Of a stretch of 64,000 nucleotides of DNA, positions 3,508 to 32,182 are shown in pieces; positions within the stretch are counted from its first letter, which is position 1; each line of letters opens with the position of its first letter. Source of the DNA: Streptantibioticus ferralitis (GTDB lineage: Bacteria; Actinomycetota; Actinomycetes; Streptomycetales; Streptomycetaceae). Below the pieces are notes generated by a model. The model was not told where the DNA came from and did not search any database. It saw only the letters and a program-made list of their open reading frames with translations. Location of the stretch: the NCBI RefSeq assembly GCF_029223525.1, contig NZ_JARHTQ010000002.1, positions 1-64,000 on the forward strand, written 5' to 3'. A program made the translations under genes and the position numbers.

Positions 3508-5318
3508 CAGGACACTCCCATGCGGTCGAGCGTGGCGGAGAGTACGGCGATAGCGTCGCAGCCGGTGAAGACGTAGGTGTCGACCCCCGCGTACGTTGCG
3601 GGACGGCCCGCGAGGAACACGTGCCGCGCGCCCGCCGCCCGCAGCGTCTGTGCGGTGGCCTCGGCCTGTTCCTCGTACACCGCGTCACTGGAGCACAGGC
3701 AGACCTCCCGCGCCCCGCTCTCCTCCAACGTGCCCTCGGTGACGGGCTCGATGCCGCCCGCCTGGAAGAGGTTGGCGGCGAAGGCGAGCCGCGCGGTGTG
3801 CGCGGCGGCCGGGCCCAGAGCGGTCAGATGGACGCGGGGCCGGGCGCCGGTCGCGGCCAGATGGGCGTCGGAACGGGCGCGCAGCGCCTCGAACGCCTCG
3901 TCCCGCCGCACCCGGGGCAGGCCCCCGGACGGCGGCTCGGGCGCGGGCGTGCGGACGACCGGCTTCTCGGCCAGGTGCGGGAACTCGCTGACTCCGGTGA
4001 CCGGTTCACGCCGTTTGGCGAGCTTCGCGCTGCGCACGGACCAGGTGTCGGCCAGCCGATCGCGCACCATGCCGGAGCGCAGGGCAGCCGCCTGCCCGCC
4101 CGTCCGCTCGATCTCCTGGAAGAACTCCCAAGCCGCGTGCGCGATTTCGTCCGTCAACTTCTCCACGTACCAGGAGCCGCCCGCCGGGTCTATCACCCGG
4201 GACAGGTGCGACTCCTCGATGAGGATGGTGGAGGTGTTGCGGGCGATGCGGCGCGCGAACGCGTCCGGCAGACCCAGCGCGTGGTCGAAGGGCAGCACCG
4301 TCACGGCGTCGGCGCCCCCCACCCCGGCGGCCAGTGTCGCGACCGTGGTGCGCAGCATGTTCACCCACGGGTCGCGGCGCGTCATCATCACCGGCGAGGT
4401 CACGGCGTGCTGGAGCTGCGCGCCCGCCTGCGGTGCCCCGCAAGCCTCGGCCACCCGAGCCCACAGCCGGCGCGCCGCGCGCAGTTTGGCGACGGTCAGG
4501 AACTGGTCGGCGGTCGCGGCGTACCGGAACTCCAGTTGGGCACAAGCCTGCTCGACGCTCAGCCCCGCCCCGGTCAGCCCGCGCAGATAGGCGACACCCG
4601 TCGCCAGAGAGCAGCCCAGCTCCTGCGCCGCCGAACCCCCTGCCTCGTGGTACGGCAGCACGTCCACGGTCAGCGCCCGCAGCCCCGGATACCGCGCGGC
4701 GCACAGCTGGGCCAGCTCGGCCACGGGCGCGAAGTCGTACGACCGCCCGGTGCGGGCCTCGTGGCCCAGCGGGTCGGCGCCCAGGTTGCCGCGCGCCGCG
4801 TCCGCCGCGACGCCCCGTTCCTCGTACAGCCGCAGCAACCGCCGCGCGGCCGGCTCGACTTCGACACCCGCGTCCAGGACGACGGGCGCCAGGTCGAGGT
4901 AGACGCCGTCGAGGGCGCGGTCGAGCGACGGGACGGGGATGGCAGCGGACTCGCCGACGGCCAGCCACAGGGAGGTGACGCCGTTCTCCAGGTCGGCCAG
5001 GACCGAGCCGGCGTCAGCGACCGTGTGCTGCTGGCGCACGTCCCAGCCGCCGGCCGTGTTGCCCTCGGCCCGGCCGCCGCGCACGAAGGGAGCGAAGCCG
5101 GGCAGGCCGGGGTCGGGCGCGGTGTCGCGCGCGGTGTACAGAGGCAGGGTGCGCAGCCCGTCCTCCAGCGCGGTGGACAGGGCGTGCTCCGCCTCGGCGT
5201 CCGAGACTTCCTTGCCCGACTTGCGTAGAACACCCGCTACCAGGTGCTGCCACTGCTCATGTGTCGCGTCAGGGAAATCGGCTGCCAGGGAGAGCCCGTC
5301 GTCAGGCAGGACCGTCAT
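3507..5318 (-). CDS. mutA: methylmalonyl-CoA mutase, small subunit
   Basis: A 603-residue partner of MutB in the alpha-beta heterodimer. It shares the mutase barrel fold ([17 protein letters not shown] matches the large-subunit [12 protein letters not shown] segment). Its C-terminal cobalamin-like domain lacks the DxHxxG motif, as is typical of the non-catalytic subunit. It is the first gene of the operon. The start at 5318 is followed upstream by about 115 bases to the next gene, leaving room for the promoter. I see no riboswitch here, in contrast to metE. Confidence 0.95.
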
Positions 5319-9227: not shown

Positions 9228-9430
9228 GCGGGCAGCGGGCAGGTCTTCGGACTCGCGGGCACGTCTCGTACGAGACACCTACTGGCCGTCGCTTCCCAGG
9301 CCCGGCTGGGCCCAGTGCGTATGACGGCGGTCGTTCCCGCTCACCGCTGCGGGGCAGTCCCGGATTCCCACCGGGTTCCCTCTTACGACGCTCCCGCCTG
9401 GCGGACGGGGCGAACCAGCTGCTGAGGTCA
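9228..9430 (-). promoter_or_regulatory. cobalamin riboswitch in the metE leader
   Basis: Read on the minus strand, the leader has the conserved cobalamin aptamer landmarks in order: GGGAACCCGGTGGGAATCC, then GGGACTGCCCCGCAGCGGTGA, then a variable peripheral arm, and finally GCGAGTCCGAAGACCTGCC, the classic 3' end. It ends about 170 bases before the metE start. Its expected action is to turn metE off when adenosyl- or methylcobalamin is plentiful and the B12-dependent synthase can be used. The roughly 295 bases between the aptamer and the ArsR gene show no gene; the metE promoter should lie there. Confidence 0.92.
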
Positions 9431-21951: not shown

Positions 21952-22089
21952 CTTGATCTTTAACCTCGAGTCTCGAACGATGCGTCGAACTTGATCACTC
22001 GCGTGGGTAACTGCCGTACACCCAGGCGGCCTTCGTCTGACCATGTGCTCCGACCAAGGAACGCACATCACCAGCACGAAGACCGTGGG

Positions 22090-22767
22090 ATGAGTCTGCA
22101 GCCCACCGAGGTGGCACCTTCGCGTGCGCCCGTCCGGCGGCGGTCCACGATCGCCGCGGGGGTCGTCGCCGTCGGCATCGTCGGCATGGCGGGCGCCGTG
22201 GCCGCCGCAGTCATGGCATCCGGGCACGACGGCCAGAAGGGCACAACCGATTCCCCCGCCTCCCAACGGCCCACCTCGGAGTCGACCGCGCCCGCCACAC
22301 CGTCGCCAACGAACGGAATCGACACCGGCGCCTGGTACGCGATCACCAACACCAACAGCGGCCAGTGCGTCGACGCCACCAACGCGGGCACCAGCAACGG
22401 CACCACCGTTCAGCAGTGGTCCTGCGGCAACGCCCAGGCCAACCAGGCGTGGAAGTTCATCCCTACCAGCGACGGCTACCACGCGGTCATCAACCGCAAC
22501 GCACCCTCGCTCGCCTTGGACGTCGCCGGTGGGCCGAGCGCGACCGCGAACGGCACACCGATTCAACTCCGGACCTACGGTGGCGTCATCAACCAGCTGT
22601 GGAAGCCGGTGCCGCTCGGAGATGGGAAGTGCGAGTTCATCGCCAAGAACAGTGGCTCGTGTCCGGACGTGACCAACCAGTCCACATCCAATGGCACGCA
22701 ACTCCAACAGTGGCAGTGCACAACCAACGACGGCGCCCAGACCTTCACGCTCAACCAGCGGTTCTGA
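22090..22767 (+). CDS. membrane-anchored ricin-type beta-trefoil lectin
   Basis: 225 residues. A cytoplasmic basic start (RAPVRRRST) precedes one membrane helix (residues about 19-40), then a Ser/Thr/Pro stalk, then a RicinB-like carbohydrate-binding domain from about residue 77. The beta-trefoil hallmarks are visible: SGQCVDATNAGTSNGTTVQQ, WSCGNAQANQAW and, in a later unit, NQSTSNGTQLQQWQC. The QxW motifs appear as QAW, QLW and QQW. It probably binds wall or external polysaccharide. It stands alone. The ATG at 22090 was chosen over an upstream frame with no features. Confidence 0.8.
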   Translation: MSLQPTEVAPSRAPVRRRSTIAAGVVAVGIVGMAGAVAAAVMASGHDGQKGTTDSPASQRPTSESTAPATPSPTNGIDTGAWYAITNTNSGQCVDATNAGTSNGTTVQQWSCGNAQANQAWKFIPTSDGYHAVINRNAPSLALDVAGGPSATANGTPIQLRTYGGVINQLWKPVPLGDGKCEFIAKNSGSCPDVTNQSTSNGTQLQQWQCTTNDGAQTFTLNQRF

Positions 22768-24830: not shown

Positions 24831-25223
24831 TCACGGATTGCGACGCAATGCGCTCGCGTCCTTGACGGCGGCCCGTAAGTTCCCTACGTCGGTGATGAGT
24901 TGACGGTCAGCGGGGGAGAACAGCCAGTGCGGTCCTGGCCGTCTGACACGGTGCGTCGACGGCACGACCAAGTGATGCGTCACACCGAGTGGACGGGTTT
25001 CGGGGACATCCCACGCGGTGGCCGCACCCTTGCTCACGAACCAATAGAGGGCGGACCCGCACGGGTCCTCGATGACGGCGCCGCTGTGTCTCCCGAGAAT
25101 TCTCAGCACGTCCATGCCGATGGTGCGCGGCACGCGGATGGCGTCCCAGTCGACTCCGGCGGGCACCAACCGGCAGTCGGCCACGGTAGGCAGGGTCAAC
25201 GATCTGGATCTGTGACAGTGCAT
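24831..25223 (-). CDS. conserved small protein of unknown function
   Basis: 130 residues. Segments such as RLVPAGVDWDAIRVPRTIGM, GAVIEDPCGSALYWFVSKG and TRPLGVTHHLVVPS look like a protein family I have the impression is common in streptomycetes, but for which I know no function. No signal peptide or membrane helix. The ATG at 25223 is plausible. Cytoplasmic by appearance. Confidence 0.6.
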   Translation of the reverse strand: MHCHRSRSLTLPTVADCRLVPAGVDWDAIRVPRTIGMDVLRILGRHSGAVIEDPCGSALYWFVSKGAATAWDVPETRPLGVTHHLVVPSTHRVRRPGPHWLFSPADRQLITDVGNLRAAVKDASALRRNP

Positions 25224-25563: not shown

Positions 25564-26223
25564 ATGTTGGCCTCACGCACCTACGTCACCGCCGTCACCG
25601 CGGCTGTCCTGCTCACCGGGACCACCGGCACGGCGCTGGCCGCCCCGGCGCACGGCGGTGGCCGGGCGAGCCACCTTGCCGCCGCTCCCAGCGCTGCCGC
25701 CCCCTTCAGCGACGGCAGCTTCGAGAACCCCAGGCTGGCACCGAACTCGATGCGGACCTTCACGACGGGGCAGTCCATAGGCCCGTGGAAGGTCACCCAG
25801 GCGACGGTCGATCTGGTCGACGGGCACTGGCAGGCGGCTGACGGACAGCAGACCGTGGACCTCAACGGCACCGAGCAGGACCTCCCCAACACCCACCCGG
25901 GGGCCGTGTCGCAGACCTTCGCCACGACCCCGGGGGCCACGTACACGGTGACGTACGCGCTCGCCGGAAACCACGAACGAGGACCGGCCGTGAAAACGGG
26001 CAAGGTCCTCGTCGACGGGCAGGACTTCCAGGACTTCTCCTTCGACACCACCGGAAAGTCCGCCACGGACATGGGCTGGGTGAAGCGGCAGGTGACCTTC
26101 GAGGCCACCGGCAGTTCGACGACCCTGACGTTCGCCAGTACCACCGCCCACACCCCGAGCGGACCGGTCATCGACGACGTCACGGTCCACCGCTGCAAGC
26201 CCTCGTGCTGCTGCTGCGGCTGA
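25564..26223 (+). CDS. secreted choice-of-anchor-C (DUF642-like) protein
   Basis: 219 residues. A signal peptide ends near TGTALAAP (about residue 27). From about residue 50 comes one choice-of-anchor-C / DUF642-like domain: FSDGSFENPRL, SIGPWKVTQATVDLV, QAADGQQTVDLNG and FSFDTTGKSATDMGW. Such galactose-binding-like beta-sandwiches occur in plants and bacteria and bind carbohydrate. The end, CKPSCCCCG, has five clustered cysteines and no membrane helix, so it is probably released or disulfide/metal-linked. Its domain is strikingly like the one fused to the sigma factor at 29286-31022. Confidence 0.85.
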   Translation: MLASRTYVTAVTAAVLLTGTTGTALAAPAHGGGRASHLAAAPSAAAPFSDGSFENPRLAPNSMRTFTTGQSIGPWKVTQATVDLVDGHWQAADGQQTVDLNGTEQDLPNTHPGAVSQTFATTPGATYTVTYALAGNHERGPAVKTGKVLVDGQDFQDFSFDTTGKSATDMGWVKRQVTFEATGSSTTLTFASTTAHTPSGPVIDDVTVHRCKPSCCCCG

Positions 26224-26276
26224 TGACGGCCAACGTGGCCGCTGCCTGACACCACCCCTTGCTCAGGCTCTCGACG

Positions 26277-26312
26277 TTGACAGTGGCCCGCCCGAGCGCG
26301 GGCCACTGTCAA
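26277..26312. terminator. strong hairpin terminator
   Basis: TTGACAGTGGCCCGC (26277-26291) and GCGGGCCACTGTCAA (26298-26312) are perfectly complementary over 15 bases with a 6-base loop. It lies 54 bases after the choice-of-anchor gene and separates it from the symporter gene. Confidence 0.9.
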
Positions 26313-26358
26313 CGCAGTCGGCGGGGCTCGTCCAGCTCCACCGTCAACGGAGAAACAG

Positions 26359-27885
26359 ATGGAACTACAGACCGCACCGGTATTGATCACTTTCGGGCTG
26401 TTCATGTTCGTGATGATCGGGATCGGTGTCCATCAGGAGACCGAGACTTTCGCCGACTTCGCCCTGGGCGGCCGTCGGCTCAACCCAGTGGTGGCGGCCC
26501 TGTCCGCGGAAGCAAGTGACATGTCCGGCTGGCTGTTCCTGGGCCTGCCCGGAGCCGTGTACGCCGGGGGGATCGGCGCTACCTGGATCGCGGTCGGCCT
26601 TGCCATCGGAACGTACCTGAACTGGCGGCTGGTCGCCCCCCGTCTGCGCACCTACACGGAACTGGCGAACAACGCGGTGACGCTCTCCGCGTACCTGGAA
26701 GAACGCTTCGAAGACCACGGAAGGACGTTGCGCACCATCTCGGCAACGGTCACCGTCGTGTTCTTCACCGTCTACGTGGCGAGCGGCTTCGTCGCCGGCG
26801 GCCTGCTGCTCAACCAGATATTCGACGTGGGATTCGGGTTCGGGGTCACCGTCTTCGCCGTCGTGATGGTCACCTACTCCGTGCTGGGCGGCTTTCGCGC
26901 CGTGAGCGCATCGCATCTGCTACAGGGCACGTTGATGCTTCTCGGGGCGTTCGCCGCTCCCGTGATCGGTGTCTGGCGGCTCGGGGGCCCGGGCGCGCTG
27001 CACCGCTCGCTGGCCCACGGGTCTCCGGCACTGCTCGACCTGGGGGCGCAGGCCAGCTTCGCCAACGGCCAATGGGATGCCGGCAAGCCGCTCGACGCCA
27101 CCGCGGTGATCTCCATGCTCGCCTGGGGGCTCGGCTACTTCGGACAGCCGCACATCCTGGCCCGCTTCATGGCCATCCAGAACCCACGCGACATTCCCAA
27201 AGCCCGGCGCATCAGCGCGGGTTGGGTGGTCCTCGCGCTGGCCGGCACCAGCCTGGCGGGACTCCTGGGCACCGTCCTGATCCACCAGCCGCTCACCGAT
27301 CCCGAGACGGTGTTCATCGCGCTGTCCACGCAGTTGGCCAACCCTTGGCTGGCGGGTGTCCTGCTGGTGGCCGTGCTCGCCGCGATCAAGTCCACCGCCG
27401 ACAGCCAGTTGCTGGTCACGGCGACATCCATCACCGAGGACTTCTTCCACGCATACGTACACCGACGCGCATCGGACGCGGCGTTGTTGTGGGTGGCACG
27501 TGCGGGCGTGATCGGGGTTGCGGCGGTCGCCTACCTGATCGCGTTGAGCGGCGGCGCCGTGTTGGACATCGTCTCCTATGCCTGGGCGGGTTTCGGCGCC
27601 GCCTTCGGGCCGGTGCTCCTGCTGTCGCTGTACTGGCCCCGGATGACGAAGGCCGGAGCGACAGCGGGCATCGTGACGGGTGCGCTCACCGTGCTCCTGT
27701 GGGGCCAGATCGATCCGCTCCTCGGCCCGTTCCGGACCGGTGTGTACGCGATGGTGCCGGGGGTGGTCGCCGCCACTGCCGCCGCGTTGTGCTTCGGCGC
27801 CTTCGCCGGCCGCCCTCCGCAGCAGCGGTATTGGGGCGACATGGGGCATTCAGTGGCGAAGCACCGCAGGCGCGACCATGCCTGA
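26359..27885 (+). CDS. putP: sodium:solute symporter, PutP (proline) type
   Basis: 508 residues, about 13 membrane helices. Family landmarks: FADFALGGRRLNPVVAALSA, ASDMSGWLFLGLPGAVYAGG (the Na+/proline site), YLEERFED and LAAIKSTADSQLLVTATSIT. This is the PutP branch of the SSS family, importing L-proline with Na+. GGAGAAACAG precedes the ATG. It shares direction with the SARP-like gene downstream (65 bases later). The proline assignment is by family only. Confidence 0.9.
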   Translation: MELQTAPVLITFGLFMFVMIGIGVHQETETFADFALGGRRLNPVVAALSAEASDMSGWLFLGLPGAVYAGGIGATWIAVGLAIGTYLNWRLVAPRLRTYTELANNAVTLSAYLEERFEDHGRTLRTISATVTVVFFTVYVASGFVAGGLLLNQIFDVGFGFGVTVFAVVMVTYSVLGGFRAVSASHLLQGTLMLLGAFAAPVIGVWRLGGPGALHRSLAHGSPALLDLGAQASFANGQWDAGKPLDATAVISMLAWGLGYFGQPHILARFMAIQNPRDIPKARRISAGWVVLALAGTSLAGLLGTVLIHQPLTDPETVFIALSTQLANPWLAGVLLVAVLAAIKSTADSQLLVTATSITEDFFHAYVHRRASDAALLWVARAGVIGVAAVAYLIALSGGAVLDIVSYAWAGFGAAFGPVLLLSLYWPRMTKAGATAGIVTGALTVLLWGQIDPLLGPFRTGVYAMVPGVVAATAAALCFGAFAGRPPQQRYWGDMGHSVAKHRRRDHA

Positions 27886-27950
27886 GTAGCCGTCAGAAGA
27901 TTCTTGTACTTCTTCCGTCATAGTCCGGCACCGGATCCCACTGTGTAGAC

Positions 27951-29228
27951 GTGGACACGAACGGTGAAGCACTGCGACGAGCGATGACGGTTGTCGATGC
28001 GCAAGGGGCCGAGACGCCCATACCCGGAAATGACAGCACCGGTGGCCCGAGGGGGTACCGCGGTACCGACCCGCGACGGGCCGAGGATTCAACGGTCGAC
28101 GTAGCGGAAGGGCTGTTGGGAATCGCCTCGCGTTTGGTCCAGGACGCCCAGGGGGGCGCGGACACCGCGCGGTTCGAACAGGTGGCAAGCAGCATTGGTT
28201 CGGTCACCACGGACTGGTTGCGGCGGGCGCTTCGCACCGCCTGGGCCGGCAGGTCTCAGGGAGCGGACACGCCAGAGGTGGAAGTCCTCCGTGTCTGGGT
28301 CCGCGCGTTCCTCACGCTGCTCGATGCCGACCAGGAACCGGCCAGGCAGGAACCCAAGGCCGCTCTGGACGCCGTACCCTTCCTCCCGACCAGTTGGCAG
28401 CATTTGGCCCAGCCGACATCCATGCATCTCACCCAGCACCAACCCAAAGTGTCGACCTGGTGTTTCGGCGGATTCCGGATGGCCGTCGGCGACCGGCTGA
28501 TCGACTGGACGAAGGTACGCCCGCGCGCCCGCGCCGCGCTACGACTGCTCGCCGTGCGCGCCGGGCAGCCAGTACACCGGGAGACCTTGATCGAGGCGCT
28601 CTGGCCCGACACGCCCGCCGAGTCGGCCACGGCCAACCTGCAGGTGGCCATCTCCAGCCTGCGCAGCCTGCTGGAACCGGACCGGGAGCGACGCAAGCCA
28701 CGGCTGGTGGTCCGCGACGGCGACGCATACCTGCTCAACCTTCCTGCCGACGCCTACCTCGATACTCTCGCGTTCCAGACCTCGTTGGCCTACGCACGGC
28801 GGGCGAGGTCCGCCGGGGACACCGCCATGACCCTGCAAGGCCTGCGGAACGCGCTCGCCGTATATCGCGGAGAACTGCTCCCCGAGGACGGACCGGCCGA
28901 ATGGCTGCAACAGGACCGGGAGATGTACCGGTACCAGGCGGCCAAAGCCGCCGCTGAACTCGCGGCCACGGAACTTGAGGTCGGTAACCCGCAGGAGGCG
29001 GTGACCGCGGCCGAGATGTGCCTGGCCGTCGACCCCTGCCATGACCAGGGTTGGCACCTGCTGATCAAGGCCTACGGACGCATCGGCGCCCCCGCCGCGG
29101 CGGAGCGGGCTCGGCGCCGCTACACCGACATGCTCGCCTCACTCGGCATCGGCACCGACCAGCCGGTCATAGCGTCACCGAAGGCTCCATCTCCCGCTGC
29201 ACACCGGGGAGTTGTGGCGAAGCGCTAG
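27951..29228 (+). CDS. SARP-like (AfsR/DnrI) transcriptional regulator with BTAD domain
   Basis: 425 residues. The first 165 residues are unassigned. They are followed by an OmpR-like winged helix (FGGFRMAVGDRLIDWTKVRP, ALRLLAVRAGQPVHRETLIE, ALWPDTPAESATANLQVAIS) and a bacterial transcriptional activation domain of TPR-like helices (about 255-405: LAYARRARSAGDTAMTLQGL, AEMCLAVDPCHDQGWHLLIK). SARPs activate secondary-metabolite clusters at direct repeats, but no such cluster is in this window. The GTG start has no clear ribosome binding site; ATG 27984 is an alternative. Confidence 0.85.
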   Translation: MDTNGEALRRAMTVVDAQGAETPIPGNDSTGGPRGYRGTDPRRAEDSTVDVAEGLLGIASRLVQDAQGGADTARFEQVASSIGSVTTDWLRRALRTAWAGRSQGADTPEVEVLRVWVRAFLTLLDADQEPARQEPKAALDAVPFLPTSWQHLAQPTSMHLTQHQPKVSTWCFGGFRMAVGDRLIDWTKVRPRARAALRLLAVRAGQPVHRETLIEALWPDTPAESATANLQVAISSLRSLLEPDRERRKPRLVVRDGDAYLLNLPADAYLDTLAFQTSLAYARRARSAGDTAMTLQGLRNALAVYRGELLPEDGPAEWLQQDREMYRYQAAKAAAELAATELEVGNPQEAVTAAEMCLAVDPCHDQGWHLLIKAYGRIGAPAAAERARRRYTDMLASLGIGTDQPVIASPKAPSPAAHRGVVAKR

Positions 29229-29246
29229 GTGGTTGGTTCGATGCCT

Positions 29247-29272
29247 CCGGCGGTGTCCACGGACACCGCCGG
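29247..29272. terminator. bidirectional hairpin terminator
   Basis: CCGGCGGTGTC and GACACCGCCGG form a perfect 11-base stem with a 4-base loop, midway between the convergent ends of the SARP-like gene and the fused sigma factor gene. Confidence 0.85.
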
Positions 29273-29285
29273 CACCGTCGGCGTG

Positions 29286-31022
29286 CTACGCCGGCACGAC
29301 CCTGACGGCGTCGATCGTCGGCCCGCATCTGCTGTTCGGGTCGGTGGTGCTGGTGAAGCGCACCGTGCTCCGGGCACCTGTCGCGGTGAACGGTACGGTC
29401 TCCGGCCGCCAGCCCATGTTGGTCGCGGAGCGTCCCGTGGTGTCGAAGGTGAAGTCCCTTGTGGTCTGGGCGGCTTGTACCGCCATGTGCTTGACCGCTG
29501 GCGCGCATGTGAAGTTACCGGCGAAGTAGAAACTGACGATGTACTGCTGACCGGCGGTGGTGTTGAAGGTCTGGGCGAGCGCCCCGTTGATGGGAGCGGG
29601 AGGGTCGCCGTTCAGGTCGATCGACTGCTGGCCGTCGGCGGCCTGATAGGCGTCCGAACGCGTGATGTTCACCGAGCCCTGAGTCACCTGCCATGGGCCG
29701 ATGAACTGGCCGGCACGGTAGAGGACCACGGGGGCGTTCGCCGCCGGCGCCTCGAAATCGCCGTCGGACACCAGTGGAGTGGGGTTGGGGGACTTGGACG
29801 CAGGCGCCGAGGGGCTCACGCCGGTCTGCGACGGCCTGGAGCTTTCCCTCGGGGCGCCCGGCGACGGGTTCGCATGCGGCCACCCCGGACCAGTGCTCGG
29901 CCGAGGCTCCAGGGGCCCACGCGGCGTCGTGCTGGGCGACACCGGCGACCGTGACGTGGGCACGGATGGCGATACGGGCCTGCGGCCCTCGGCGTGGGGG
30001 CGTGGGGCAGATCCCTCCGGCGGTAACACGGAAACGGCCACCGCGACCAGGAACAGACCAGATGCCACCGAGACGCCCATGGCACTGCCGGCCACCCTGG
30101 CCCCTTTGCCGCTTGCCAACCTCCACCAGGCCCAACCTCCGTCGTGTGGCTGGGGTGTTGGCCCTGCGCCGTCTGGCGATCCATGTGACGGCTCGGTGTC
30201 GACCAGCGAGGCGAAGTAGCCGGCGAACGCCGGGCCCAGGACCAGCGGGGCCAGAATGCCGCGCAGACCGTCGGAGACCTCGCGAAGTTCCAGCAGCAGT
30301 CCGGTACAGCGCTCGCATTGGGTGAGATGCTCCTCGACTCGGTCGCGATGCTGCTCCGCCAGGGAACCACGCAGGTAAGCGGCGAGTTTCGAGGCGCACT
30401 TGCGGCACTCGCGCTCCATGTCCAGCTCGGACAGATGCGCTTGCAGGTACTCCTTGCGCAGCCCTTCGCGAGCGCGACAGGCAAGTGCGGCAACGGCGTT
30501 GGCGGACAGTCCCAGTCGTGGCGCGACCTGGGCCGGGCTCTCCTCTTCCACCTCCGTGTGCCATAACACGGTCTGCCAGCGTTCGGGCAGCGCGGCGAAG
30601 GCCCGCCCGACGAGTGACGCCTCCAGATCGGCCAGCACCGGATCCTCGAAGGGGACCGCGGAGGCGTAGTCCTCCGGTTCCGGCGTCGGCGTGGACCGCC
30701 TTCCGCGCACCGCCGCGTTGGTGGCGATCCGTCGTACAACTGTCAGCAGATACGGCCGGAATGCCTGATTGGGTCCGCCACCGGCACGGATCGCGCCGAG
30801 TACCTGGGTGAACCCCTCGGAGGCTATGTCCTCCGCGTCCGCCGGACTGGGCGCGTAGAGGCGGGCCAGACAACAGGCTGGTCCGAGGTGCCGCTCGTAG
30901 AGAAGTCCGAAGGCGGCGTCGTCCCCCTTCCGGGCACGTTGGACGAGCTCCTCATCGGGCTGTTCCGCTGGTGCGCCGTCCCGCTGGCTCCCAAGCCCCT
31001 CGGGCCTCGGCCTGCCTGCCAT
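29286..31022 (-). CDS. ECF sigma factor fused to zinc finger, membrane helix and extracellular choice-of-anchor-C domain
   Basis: 578 residues from the ATG at 31022, eight bases after AGGAG. Domain order: sigma region 2 (about 29-95: DDAAFGLLYERHLGPACCLA, ADAEDIASEGFTQVLGAI), sigma region 4 (about 135-190: LPERWQTVLWHTEVEEESPA, GLSANAVAALACRAREGLRK), an anti-sigma-like zinc finger (C206-x2-C209, H232-x3-C236-x2-C239), a membrane helix (about 311-333), an 85-residue Pro/Ser/Thr linker, and a DUF642-like domain (about 418-578) ending VVPA. The C-terminus should be outside the cell and the sigma domains inside. Fused ECF groups with zinc finger, helix and outer sensor are known in actinobacteria; release by proteolysis or conformational change is inference. 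Confidence 0.9.
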   Translation of the reverse strand: MAGRPRPEGLGSQRDGAPAEQPDEELVQRARKGDDAAFGLLYERHLGPACCLARLYAPSPADAEDIASEGFTQVLGAIRAGGGPNQAFRPYLLTVVRRIATNAAVRGRRSTPTPEPEDYASAVPFEDPVLADLEASLVGRAFAALPERWQTVLWHTEVEEESPAQVAPRLGLSANAVAALACRAREGLRKEYLQAHLSELDMERECRKCASKLAAYLRGSLAEQHRDRVEEHLTQCERCTGLLLELREVSDGLRGILAPLVLGPAFAGYFASLVDTEPSHGSPDGAGPTPQPHDGGWAWWRLASGKGARVAGSAMGVSVASGLFLVAVAVSVLPPEGSAPRPHAEGRRPVSPSVPTSRSPVSPSTTPRGPLEPRPSTGPGWPHANPSPGAPRESSRPSQTGVSPSAPASKSPNPTPLVSDGDFEAPAANAPVVLYRAGQFIGPWQVTQGSVNITRSDAYQAADGQQSIDLNGDPPAPINGALAQTFNTTAGQQYIVSFYFAGNFTCAPAVKHMAVQAAQTTRDFTFDTTGRSATNMGWRPETVPFTATGARSTVRFTSTTDPNSRCGPTIDAVRVVPA

Positions 31023-31177
31023 CGCCCCCACTCCTCTGAACCCGCCATAGGTTCTGGCCGGTGGACGCTCGGGTCCCAACGACCTCGATGGCCTCCGAGG
31101 GAAGGAACACTAGCCGCCTCGCGCATCGACGTTCGCCGGTTCGGAGAATCGTGCTCACAACGATTGTCGTACGCCCG

Positions 31178-31801
31178 TCAGATCAGGCCATGACGCATGG
31201 CGTAGGCGACGGCATGGCAGCGGTTGCGGAGTTGATAGCGGTTCTGGATGTCGTGCAGGACCTGCTTGACCGTGCGCGGTGAGTAGGCCACCTTGGCCGC
31301 GATCTCGGCGGTGTCGAACCCCTCGGCGACCAGCCGCAGCACCTCGACCTCCCGGTCAGTGAGGTCGTTGAAGTTCAGCCCGCGCGGTCCCAGGACCTGC
31401 CGTTGCACACGGCCGACCCGACCGAGCAGTCCTCCCAACAGATCCGGCGGTACCGCCCCTTCTCCCGCCGCGGCCGACTTGACCACGGTGACCAGCCGTT
31501 CAGGGGTGGCCTCCCCGCGCCGAACCACCCCGACCACACCGGCCTCCGCCACCGACACGAGGTCGGACTCATCGATCTGCGCGGTGACGAGTACCAGCCG
31601 AGCCGCGCTCGCCTGAGCCACGGATCGCAGGACCCGCAGGCTGTCGTCGGACACCGCGCCAGTGACCACCAAGGCGACCTTCGCCTGGTCCAACTCCGCA
31701 TCAGCCAGTACCTCCACCTCCGGCCGGGGCCTGAGCGCCCCGGCCACACCGACCTGCGAGATGGGATCGTCCGCGCGAACGCAGACGGGAATGCGCTCCA
31801 T
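31178..31801 (-). CDS. LuxR-type regulator with degenerate receiver domain
   Basis: 207 residues from the ATG at 31801, preceded by GGAGGAGCACGG. The N-terminal 125 residues have a receiver-like fold (PISQVGVAGALRPRPEVEVL ... ALVVTGAVSDDSLRVLRSV), but no acidic triad or phosphorylatable Asp is evident. It is followed by a clear LuxR/FixJ helix-turn-helix: LTDREVEVLRLVAEGFDTAE, VAYSPRTVKQVLHDIQNRY. It lies 155 bases upstream of the fused sigma gene and points the same way, so it may be its regulator or cotranscribed. Confidence 0.85.
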   Translation of the reverse strand: MERIPVCVRADDPISQVGVAGALRPRPEVEVLADAELDQAKVALVVTGAVSDDSLRVLRSVAQASAARLVLVTAQIDESDLVSVAEAGVVGVVRRGEATPERLVTVVKSAAAGEGAVPPDLLGGLLGRVGRVQRQVLGPRGLNFNDLTDREVEVLRLVAEGFDTAEIAAKVAYSPRTVKQVLHDIQNRYQLRNRCHAVAYAMRHGLI

Positions 31802-32182
31802 CCGTGCTCCTCCCCAGCGCATTGACACCAACGAGGACATGGCGTCTCGCGAACAACTCTGCGGACCGCGCTGTGCGTGGACTGAACATGGACCTAACGC
31901 CCGTGCGCGTTCCCACGACGAGCGCTCAGGGCGGCCCCCGGGGCGGCCGAGTCGCGCGGAAGTGCGCCCGTTCGTCGGTTGCCGCCGGGCGCGCGCTCCC
32001 AGCGTCGCCGTGTGACCGTCCTCGACCGGCCTGGTCCACCGACCGAGGCGCGGTCCCGCCACGTCACATCGGATCCACAGCCAGGCCACCGAGGCGTTCC
32101 CCGTTGACGATCAGTTCGGCTCGCAGCATGCCGTCCCGCACGCCGTAGGCACGGGAGTTGACGGCAGGCGCTACCACTGCTT
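31802..32182. other. intergenic; possible C-terminal scrap at about 32064-32165
   Basis: Most of this stretch shows no coding signal. On the minus strand, 32165 to 32064 reads AVNSRAYGVRDGMLRAELIV then NGERLGGLAVDPM and a stop, which looks like a real protein end rather than a shadow, but I cannot assign it and it has no start. Confidence 0.4.

Follow-up and report, generated by a model that had tools for sequence, protein, structure and literature searches.

The stretch of DNA analysed here, 64,000 nucleotides of the soil bacterium Streptantibioticus ferralitis (contig NZ_JARHTQ010000002.1, positions 1 to 64,000; the window), encodes a sigma factor of the extracytoplasmic function (ECF) type that carries its own outer sensor, a DUF642 domain, and close by a free, secreted-looking copy of the same domain. 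What would such a sensor recognise, and what is the free copy for? We propose, with a probability of roughly 60%, a membrane-tethered sigma factor of the ECF52 type with a glycan-sensing DUF642 domain, whose supply is controlled by a Streptomyces antibiotic regulatory protein (SARP) and to which the free DUF642 protein is a partner.

The fusion lies on the reverse strand at positions 29286-31022 (ATG at 31022) and comprises 578 amino acids. Pfam matches above the gathering score place sigma region 2 at residues 41-108 (Sigma70_r2, PF04542) and region 4 at residues 138-186 (Sigma70_r4_2, PF08281; together 30465-30902), a Cys/His anti-sigma-like finger with the motif HxxxCxxC at residues 206-239 (zf-HC2, PF13490; 30306-30407) and the DUF642 domain, predicted to be extracellular, at residues 417-575 (29298-29774). 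The NCBIfam choice-of-anchor C model TIGR04362 also matches the protein (133 bits, cut-off 120). The one hydrophobic stretch, a single membrane helix at about residues 315-333 (30024-30080; mean Kyte-Doolittle value 2.29 over 19 residues), is N-terminal to a Pro/Ser-rich stalk recognised by composition at about residues 340-410 (29793-30005). The one-chain architecture that an earlier note had read from the letters is thus borne out by Pfam, NCBIfam and hydropathy. Fused ECF sigma factors of this kind are indeed known from actinobacteria, as that note had remarked. Members of ECF52, of which SCO4117 of S. coelicolor was the first to be studied, combine a zinc finger, a membrane region, a proline-rich extension and a carbohydrate-binding domain (PMC5826349, in the part cited here). 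The suggestion in the earlier note of a system still undescribed goes too far where the fusion is concerned, because the plan of SCO4117 is identical (same source).

The free protein (25564-26223, forward strand; 219 amino acids) has matches to DUF642 and TIGR04362 that span residues 48-208 (157 bits, cut-off 120) and starts with what looks by eye like a signal peptide, in keeping with its earlier description as a secreted protein of almost nothing but the domain of the fusion. The fused and free domains of the window are 48% identical over the matched region.

To place the pair among its relatives we surveyed genomes with a DUF642 profile, which at E 1e-8 matched 22 of 121 genomes of the family and, at the stricter E 1e-30, 22 of 295 Streptomyces genomes; a smaller Streptomyces run had given 10 of 121 genomes, all ten recovered in the larger one, and three weak matches (G066, G070 and G113) were left out of the locus counts. 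DUF642-sigma fusions occur in six of the profile-surveyed genomes (G000, G001, G111, G310, G312 and G399), and Streptomyces sp. CT34 and S. coffeae bring the total to ten loci in eight genomes. The plan is identical in all ten, each time in a single open reading frame: the finger motif and then a helix scoring at least 1.78 follow the sigma part, and the fraction of Pro plus Ser C-terminal to the finger is 0.28-0.48. Eight of the ten loci are of one type, with a LuxR-type regulator, the fusion, a BTAD gene and a gene for a 130-residue protein together (in G399 the BTAD match is partial and the last gene is a 36-residue fragment; in CT34, L019, the SARP gene is matched in two frames). A PutP-type symporter gene is part of the cluster in six of these eight.

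Four of the eight LuxR-type loci have an intact free copy no more than 10 kb from the fusion, namely those in the window, in S. rubrisoli (G001), in CT34, where it was found by tblastn, and in G111 (L078), which has two. G310 retains a decayed copy with an internal deletion, in the same place and orientation as in CT34. The position of the free gene varies: it lies on the far side of PutP in the window, ahead of LuxR in CT34 and, in G111, on the far side of both PutP and a partial alpha-L-rhamnosidase-like gene (L078:16081-17151). In all, 5 of 43 free copies, in four genomes, are near a DUF642 fusion. The neighbourhood on which the earlier note had built its idea of a module therefore recurs, with changed gene order, in S. 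rubrisoli, CT34 and G111, and in decayed form in G310, but it was not found at five other loci. The LuxR/SARP/fusion cluster is real and conserved; as a free copy accompanies the fusion at only some loci, the free protein recurs as a related partner but is not obligatory.

Upstream of the LuxR gene the cluster carries a direct repeat with a period of 11 bp, GTTAGGTCCAT GTTCAG (31882-31898, reverse strand), a candidate AfsR/SARP-type box 97 bp before the LuxR start. Alignment of the corresponding regions gives GTTARGTSCRYGTTNRG, two repeats with an 11-bp period between flanks that can barely be aligned, at 97-101 bp before the LuxR start in all eight LuxR-type loci. The exact pattern was found in 10 of 151 loci examined, and every one of the ten represents one of these eight clusters. 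The window has one match, and at least one match occurs in 34 of 100 shuffles when two mismatches are allowed; the weight of this evidence is in the conserved place, not in the match count. With a relaxed pattern the window again has a match before LuxR only, and none before the free gene or PutP. No clear -10 element was identified at the repeat. SARPs bind direct repeats with 11-bp spacing, and the afs box consists of two 11-bp repeats (PMC10936776, in the part cited here). By this analogy the SARP of the cluster itself is the obvious candidate for binding the repeat.

On a tree of 52 DUF642 domains, from which the split G144 copy and the G310 remnant were left out, nine fused domains form one clade (support 97) and the linked free copies are placed outside it. 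The linked copies are close kin of each other: for four copies (one of the two Streptantibioticus copies was kept, and both G111 copies are among them) the mean pairwise distance is 0.450, compared with 0.778 for random sets (p 0.0027, 20,000 draws). A further fusion, G312b (L138:7315-9246), combines a chassis of the CT34/G310 type with a free-type domain. Its chassis is sister to G310/CT34 on a chassis tree of 31 sequences (bootstrap 100), while on the domain tree the sister of its DUF642 domain is one of the linked free copies of G111 (99). As chassis and domain are placed with different kin, the fused domain has been exchanged for one of the free type, and on the evidence of the two trees G312b is a natural sensor swap. 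That the sigma chassis can carry a domain of the free type fits the notion that fused and free domains share a class of ligand.

What this ligand may be is suggested by the fold. A model of the fused domain alone, built from 48 sequences, reached a predicted local distance difference test score (pLDDT) of 91.8, while a model of the whole fusion (pLDDT 39.6) was set aside. After re-scoring of Foldseek matches, the solved structures closest to this predicted jelly-roll are xylan- and xyloglucan-binding modules of carbohydrate-binding module (CBM) family CBM4-2 (Z 14.7, root-mean-square deviation 2.3 over 142 residues, 14% identity), followed by CBM61 (14.1). When the DUF642 profile was run against the sequences of the PDB, no match reached significance (best E 0.14). 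The CBM4-like fold of the model makes a polysaccharide the likely ligand. For ECF52 and ECF53, the predicted glycosyl hydrolase and carbohydrate-binding domains are described as not experimentally validated (PMC10766802, in the part cited here).

From what is observed directly, i.e. the architecture, the conserved cluster and repeat, the kinship of the linked free copies and one natural sensor swap, we propose the following mechanism. The fusion would be a membrane-tethered sigma factor of the ECF52 type that works as a one-component system, whose outer CBM4-like DUF642 domain most likely binds a wall or environmental polysaccharide and whose cytoplasmic zinc finger would hold the sigma domains inactive. 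Altered ligand binding could then lead to proteolysis and free the sigma domains, by extension from RsgI and from SCO4117, for which truncation data have been reported and release by proteolysis has been proposed (PMC5826349 and PMC8999054, in the parts cited here). The SARP probably activates a LuxR-fusion operon through the conserved 11-bp repeats and in this way would set the supply of the sensor. The free secreted DUF642 protein would recognise the same class of ligand as the fusion and may serve as a separate wall- or matrix-bound partner that influences the amount of ligand seen by the tether.

Several observations weigh against this proposal. No free copy lies near the fusion in G312a or G399 (40 and 39 kb examined), none was seen in S. 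coffeae, whose contig on one side stops about 3 kb beyond the fusion, and none is near the two fusions without a LuxR neighbour (C38, in the genome that holds the window, and G312b); five of the ten fusion loci are in this way without an intact or decayed copy. Conversely, 38 of the 43 free copies have no DUF642 fusion near them in the DNA examined (mostly 9-10 kb on each side; 3.9 and 2.3 kb to the contig ends in G136, 4.8 kb on one side in G270, 6.6-6.9 kb for the C11 copy and 8 kb for two plasmid records), so that the free protein must also work without the fusion. The related genomes share ancestry, and the linked loci are therefore not independent events. Of the four copies compared for kinship, two belong to the single genome G111, the clade of linked copies has a support of 76 with an inner node at 46 and also includes the unlinked C11 copy of the genome that holds the window, and two free copies (G080 and G180) are sister to the fused clade (100). 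In the structural comparison Stig cyclases score nearly as high (13.7) as the CBM modules, and a shared fold is no demonstration of sugar binding. The repeat pattern was derived from the same eight loci, and a lone match per 64 kb is not unusual. Finally, the earlier note had suggested looking for a common promoter motif; none between the free gene and LuxR or the fusion was seen by alignment or by two pattern scans, the alignment upstream of the free genes having rough start points in three of its six rows.

This last result bears on the reading in which the sigma factor has the free protein as an output: the protein would belong to its regulon and bind the same polysaccharide as the fusion, much as parts of the cellulosome have module families in common with RsgI sensors in the published accounts drawn on here. 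The linked placement of the free gene, the CBM-like fold of DUF642 and the RsgI precedent speak for it, while the negative outcome of the promoter comparison speaks against it. We regard it as a tentative alternative that deserves to be kept in mind.

The free gene could also be a passenger, i.e. an ordinary secreted matrix protein, placed near the fusion by the common history of the cluster and without a part in signalling. The abundance of unlinked free copies and the fusion loci devoid of one are what this would predict. Against it, the linkage persists although gene order differs between the window, CT34 and G111, the linked copies are close kin, and the domain has been exchanged in G312b; random placement, moreover, would be expected at near 0.25% per pair if one counts about 20 kb in a genome of 8 Mb. 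On balance we consider the passenger explanation unlikely.

Equally unlikely in our estimate is that the fusion is just another ECF52 member, with DUF642 merely standing in for NPCBM. Besides the identical plan of SCO4117, this reading can draw on the variety of related chassis. We surveyed sigma chassis without DUF642 in 21 relatives; the C-terminal domains recognised by Pfam in 11 such proteins, including those of the genome that holds the window, are NPCBM in eight and a bacterial Ig domain in one, with none recognised in two, and one further chassis (G094) ends in a ricin-type lectin. The DUF642 fusions, however, have a gene cluster and repeat of their own, and on the chassis tree all ten fall into one clade (86), whose sister is a Nonomuraea fusion (98); the NPCBM group is placed elsewhere, with a support of 34 at a deep node.

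Less likely still is a more specific role for the free protein, that of a soluble twin which would compete for, present or titrate the ligand and at the same time serve as a spare sensor cassette, recombination re-tooling the receptor as in G312b. If true, the system would amount to a sigma-factor receptor that keeps a swappable soluble decoy. Judged by sequence, the free protein may be a competitor, a presenter or a sigma output. A recent local duplication of the fused domain as the source of the free copy was rejected, since the nine fused domains group with each other and not with the linked free copies.

We know of no identified ligand of any membrane-tethered ECF52-type sigma factor. The proposed tethered, glycan-sensing sigma factor has the practical advantage that its sensor exists both in tethered form and as a secreted single-domain protein, which can be purified as bait for the ligand. 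The exchange in G312b offers a ready-made natural domain-swap experiment, and the conserved SARP-type repeat provides a testable wiring from an antibiotic-type regulator to outside sensing.

The conserved unit takes in two features beyond the span covered by the earlier note, the 130-residue gene (24831-25223, reverse strand), which has no Pfam match and is matched in all eight LuxR-type loci, and the repeat at 31882-31898. The regulator upstream of the fusion and codirectional with it (31178-31801, reverse strand) is of the LuxR/NarL type by its GerE/LuxR domain (Pfam, NCBIfam) and is present at eight of the ten fusion loci. Its N-terminal half has no match to Pfam Response_reg at E 0.05; NCBIfam NarL-type models cover more of it with scores below their cut-offs. 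Convergent with the fusion, the candidate box binder (27951-29228, forward strand) contains both Trans_reg_C and BTAD, the hallmark of SARPs (Pfam), and next to it is the PutP-type sodium/proline symporter gene (26359-27885, forward strand; 530 bits, cut-off 515.5). The symporter, SARP-like and degenerate LuxR neighbours named earlier are confirmed by these matches.

Further features were noted along the way. A Cys-rich tail, defined as at least two Cys within the last 14 residues, is found in 41 of the 43 free copies and in none of the ten fused proteins, G312b included (a lone Cys counted in five is a residue of the domain). Such a tail, CKPSCCCCG (26194-26220) in the free protein of the window, is a possible anchor, metal site or cross-link. 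A Cys pair within the domain is complete in 9 of 48 aligned domains and never represented by one Cys alone, which suggests a disulphide. Upstream of the BTAD gene at 27951, seven aligned loci share a conserved block with CGTCATAG. The relaxed repeat pattern occurs away from LuxR at L078:4637, L008:11353 and in G399 (position 9340 of the joined stretch); the first, in G111, is a second 11-bp direct repeat directly before a secreted-looking gene at 4679. An ECF-promoter-like pattern (GGnAAC, spacer, TARGKT) matched only L019, G310 and G399 among ten stretches scanned, not the window, and was dropped. A protein with a ricin-type lectin domain and an N-terminal hydrophobic stretch is encoded upstream of the cluster at 21991-22767, and in G094 a free DUF642 gene lies about 2 kb from the ECF52-like chassis with the ricin-type lectin (L094:9661-14007). 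An NPCBM-type ECF52 relative (L101:7128-10103) has a collagen-like repeat between membrane region and sensor.

How does the system compare with those already known? With AfsR and the afs box it shares a SARP regulator and two 11-bp direct repeats (PMC10936776, in the part cited here). It differs in that the repeat precedes a LuxR-sigma gene pair, where its binding is predicted. RsgI/SigI of Clostridium thermocellum is, going by the descriptions available to us, likewise a membrane sensor of polysaccharides that signals to a sigma factor by proteolysis. In RsgI/SigI, sigma and anti-sigma are two separate proteins.

The closest likeness is to ECF52. ECF regions 2 and 4, the zinc finger (PF13490) and, by hydropathy and composition, the helix and the proline-rich extension are all present in the fusion of the window, and both are actinobacterial proteins with an outer domain of sugar-binding type (PMC5826349, in the part cited here). 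In contrast, the fusion has no match to NPCBM in Pfam, DUF642 replacing the smart00776/NPCBM domain; as the modelled DUF642 fold is CBM4-like, the fusion may share the carbohydrate-binding feature of ECF52 in a wide sense. A literature search for DUF642 with sigma factor gave nothing on the subject, and one for choice-of-anchor C with Streptomyces gave none. The genome itself holds three such sigma proteins, the fusion of the window, a second DUF642 fusion (C38) and an NPCBM-type protein (C30). The last adjoins an AtrA-like TetR gene and is likely, judged by sequence, to be the counterpart of SCO4117; the window has no AtrA-like gene (best tblastn E 0.03 with the AtrA-like protein of C30 as query). 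The fusion of the window instead stands in a LuxR/SARP/PutP cluster of its own, sometimes with a free DUF642 twin. The plan of the fusion is already known; its DUF642 sensor, its apparently separate clade, its gene cluster and its repeat are the features of a variant.

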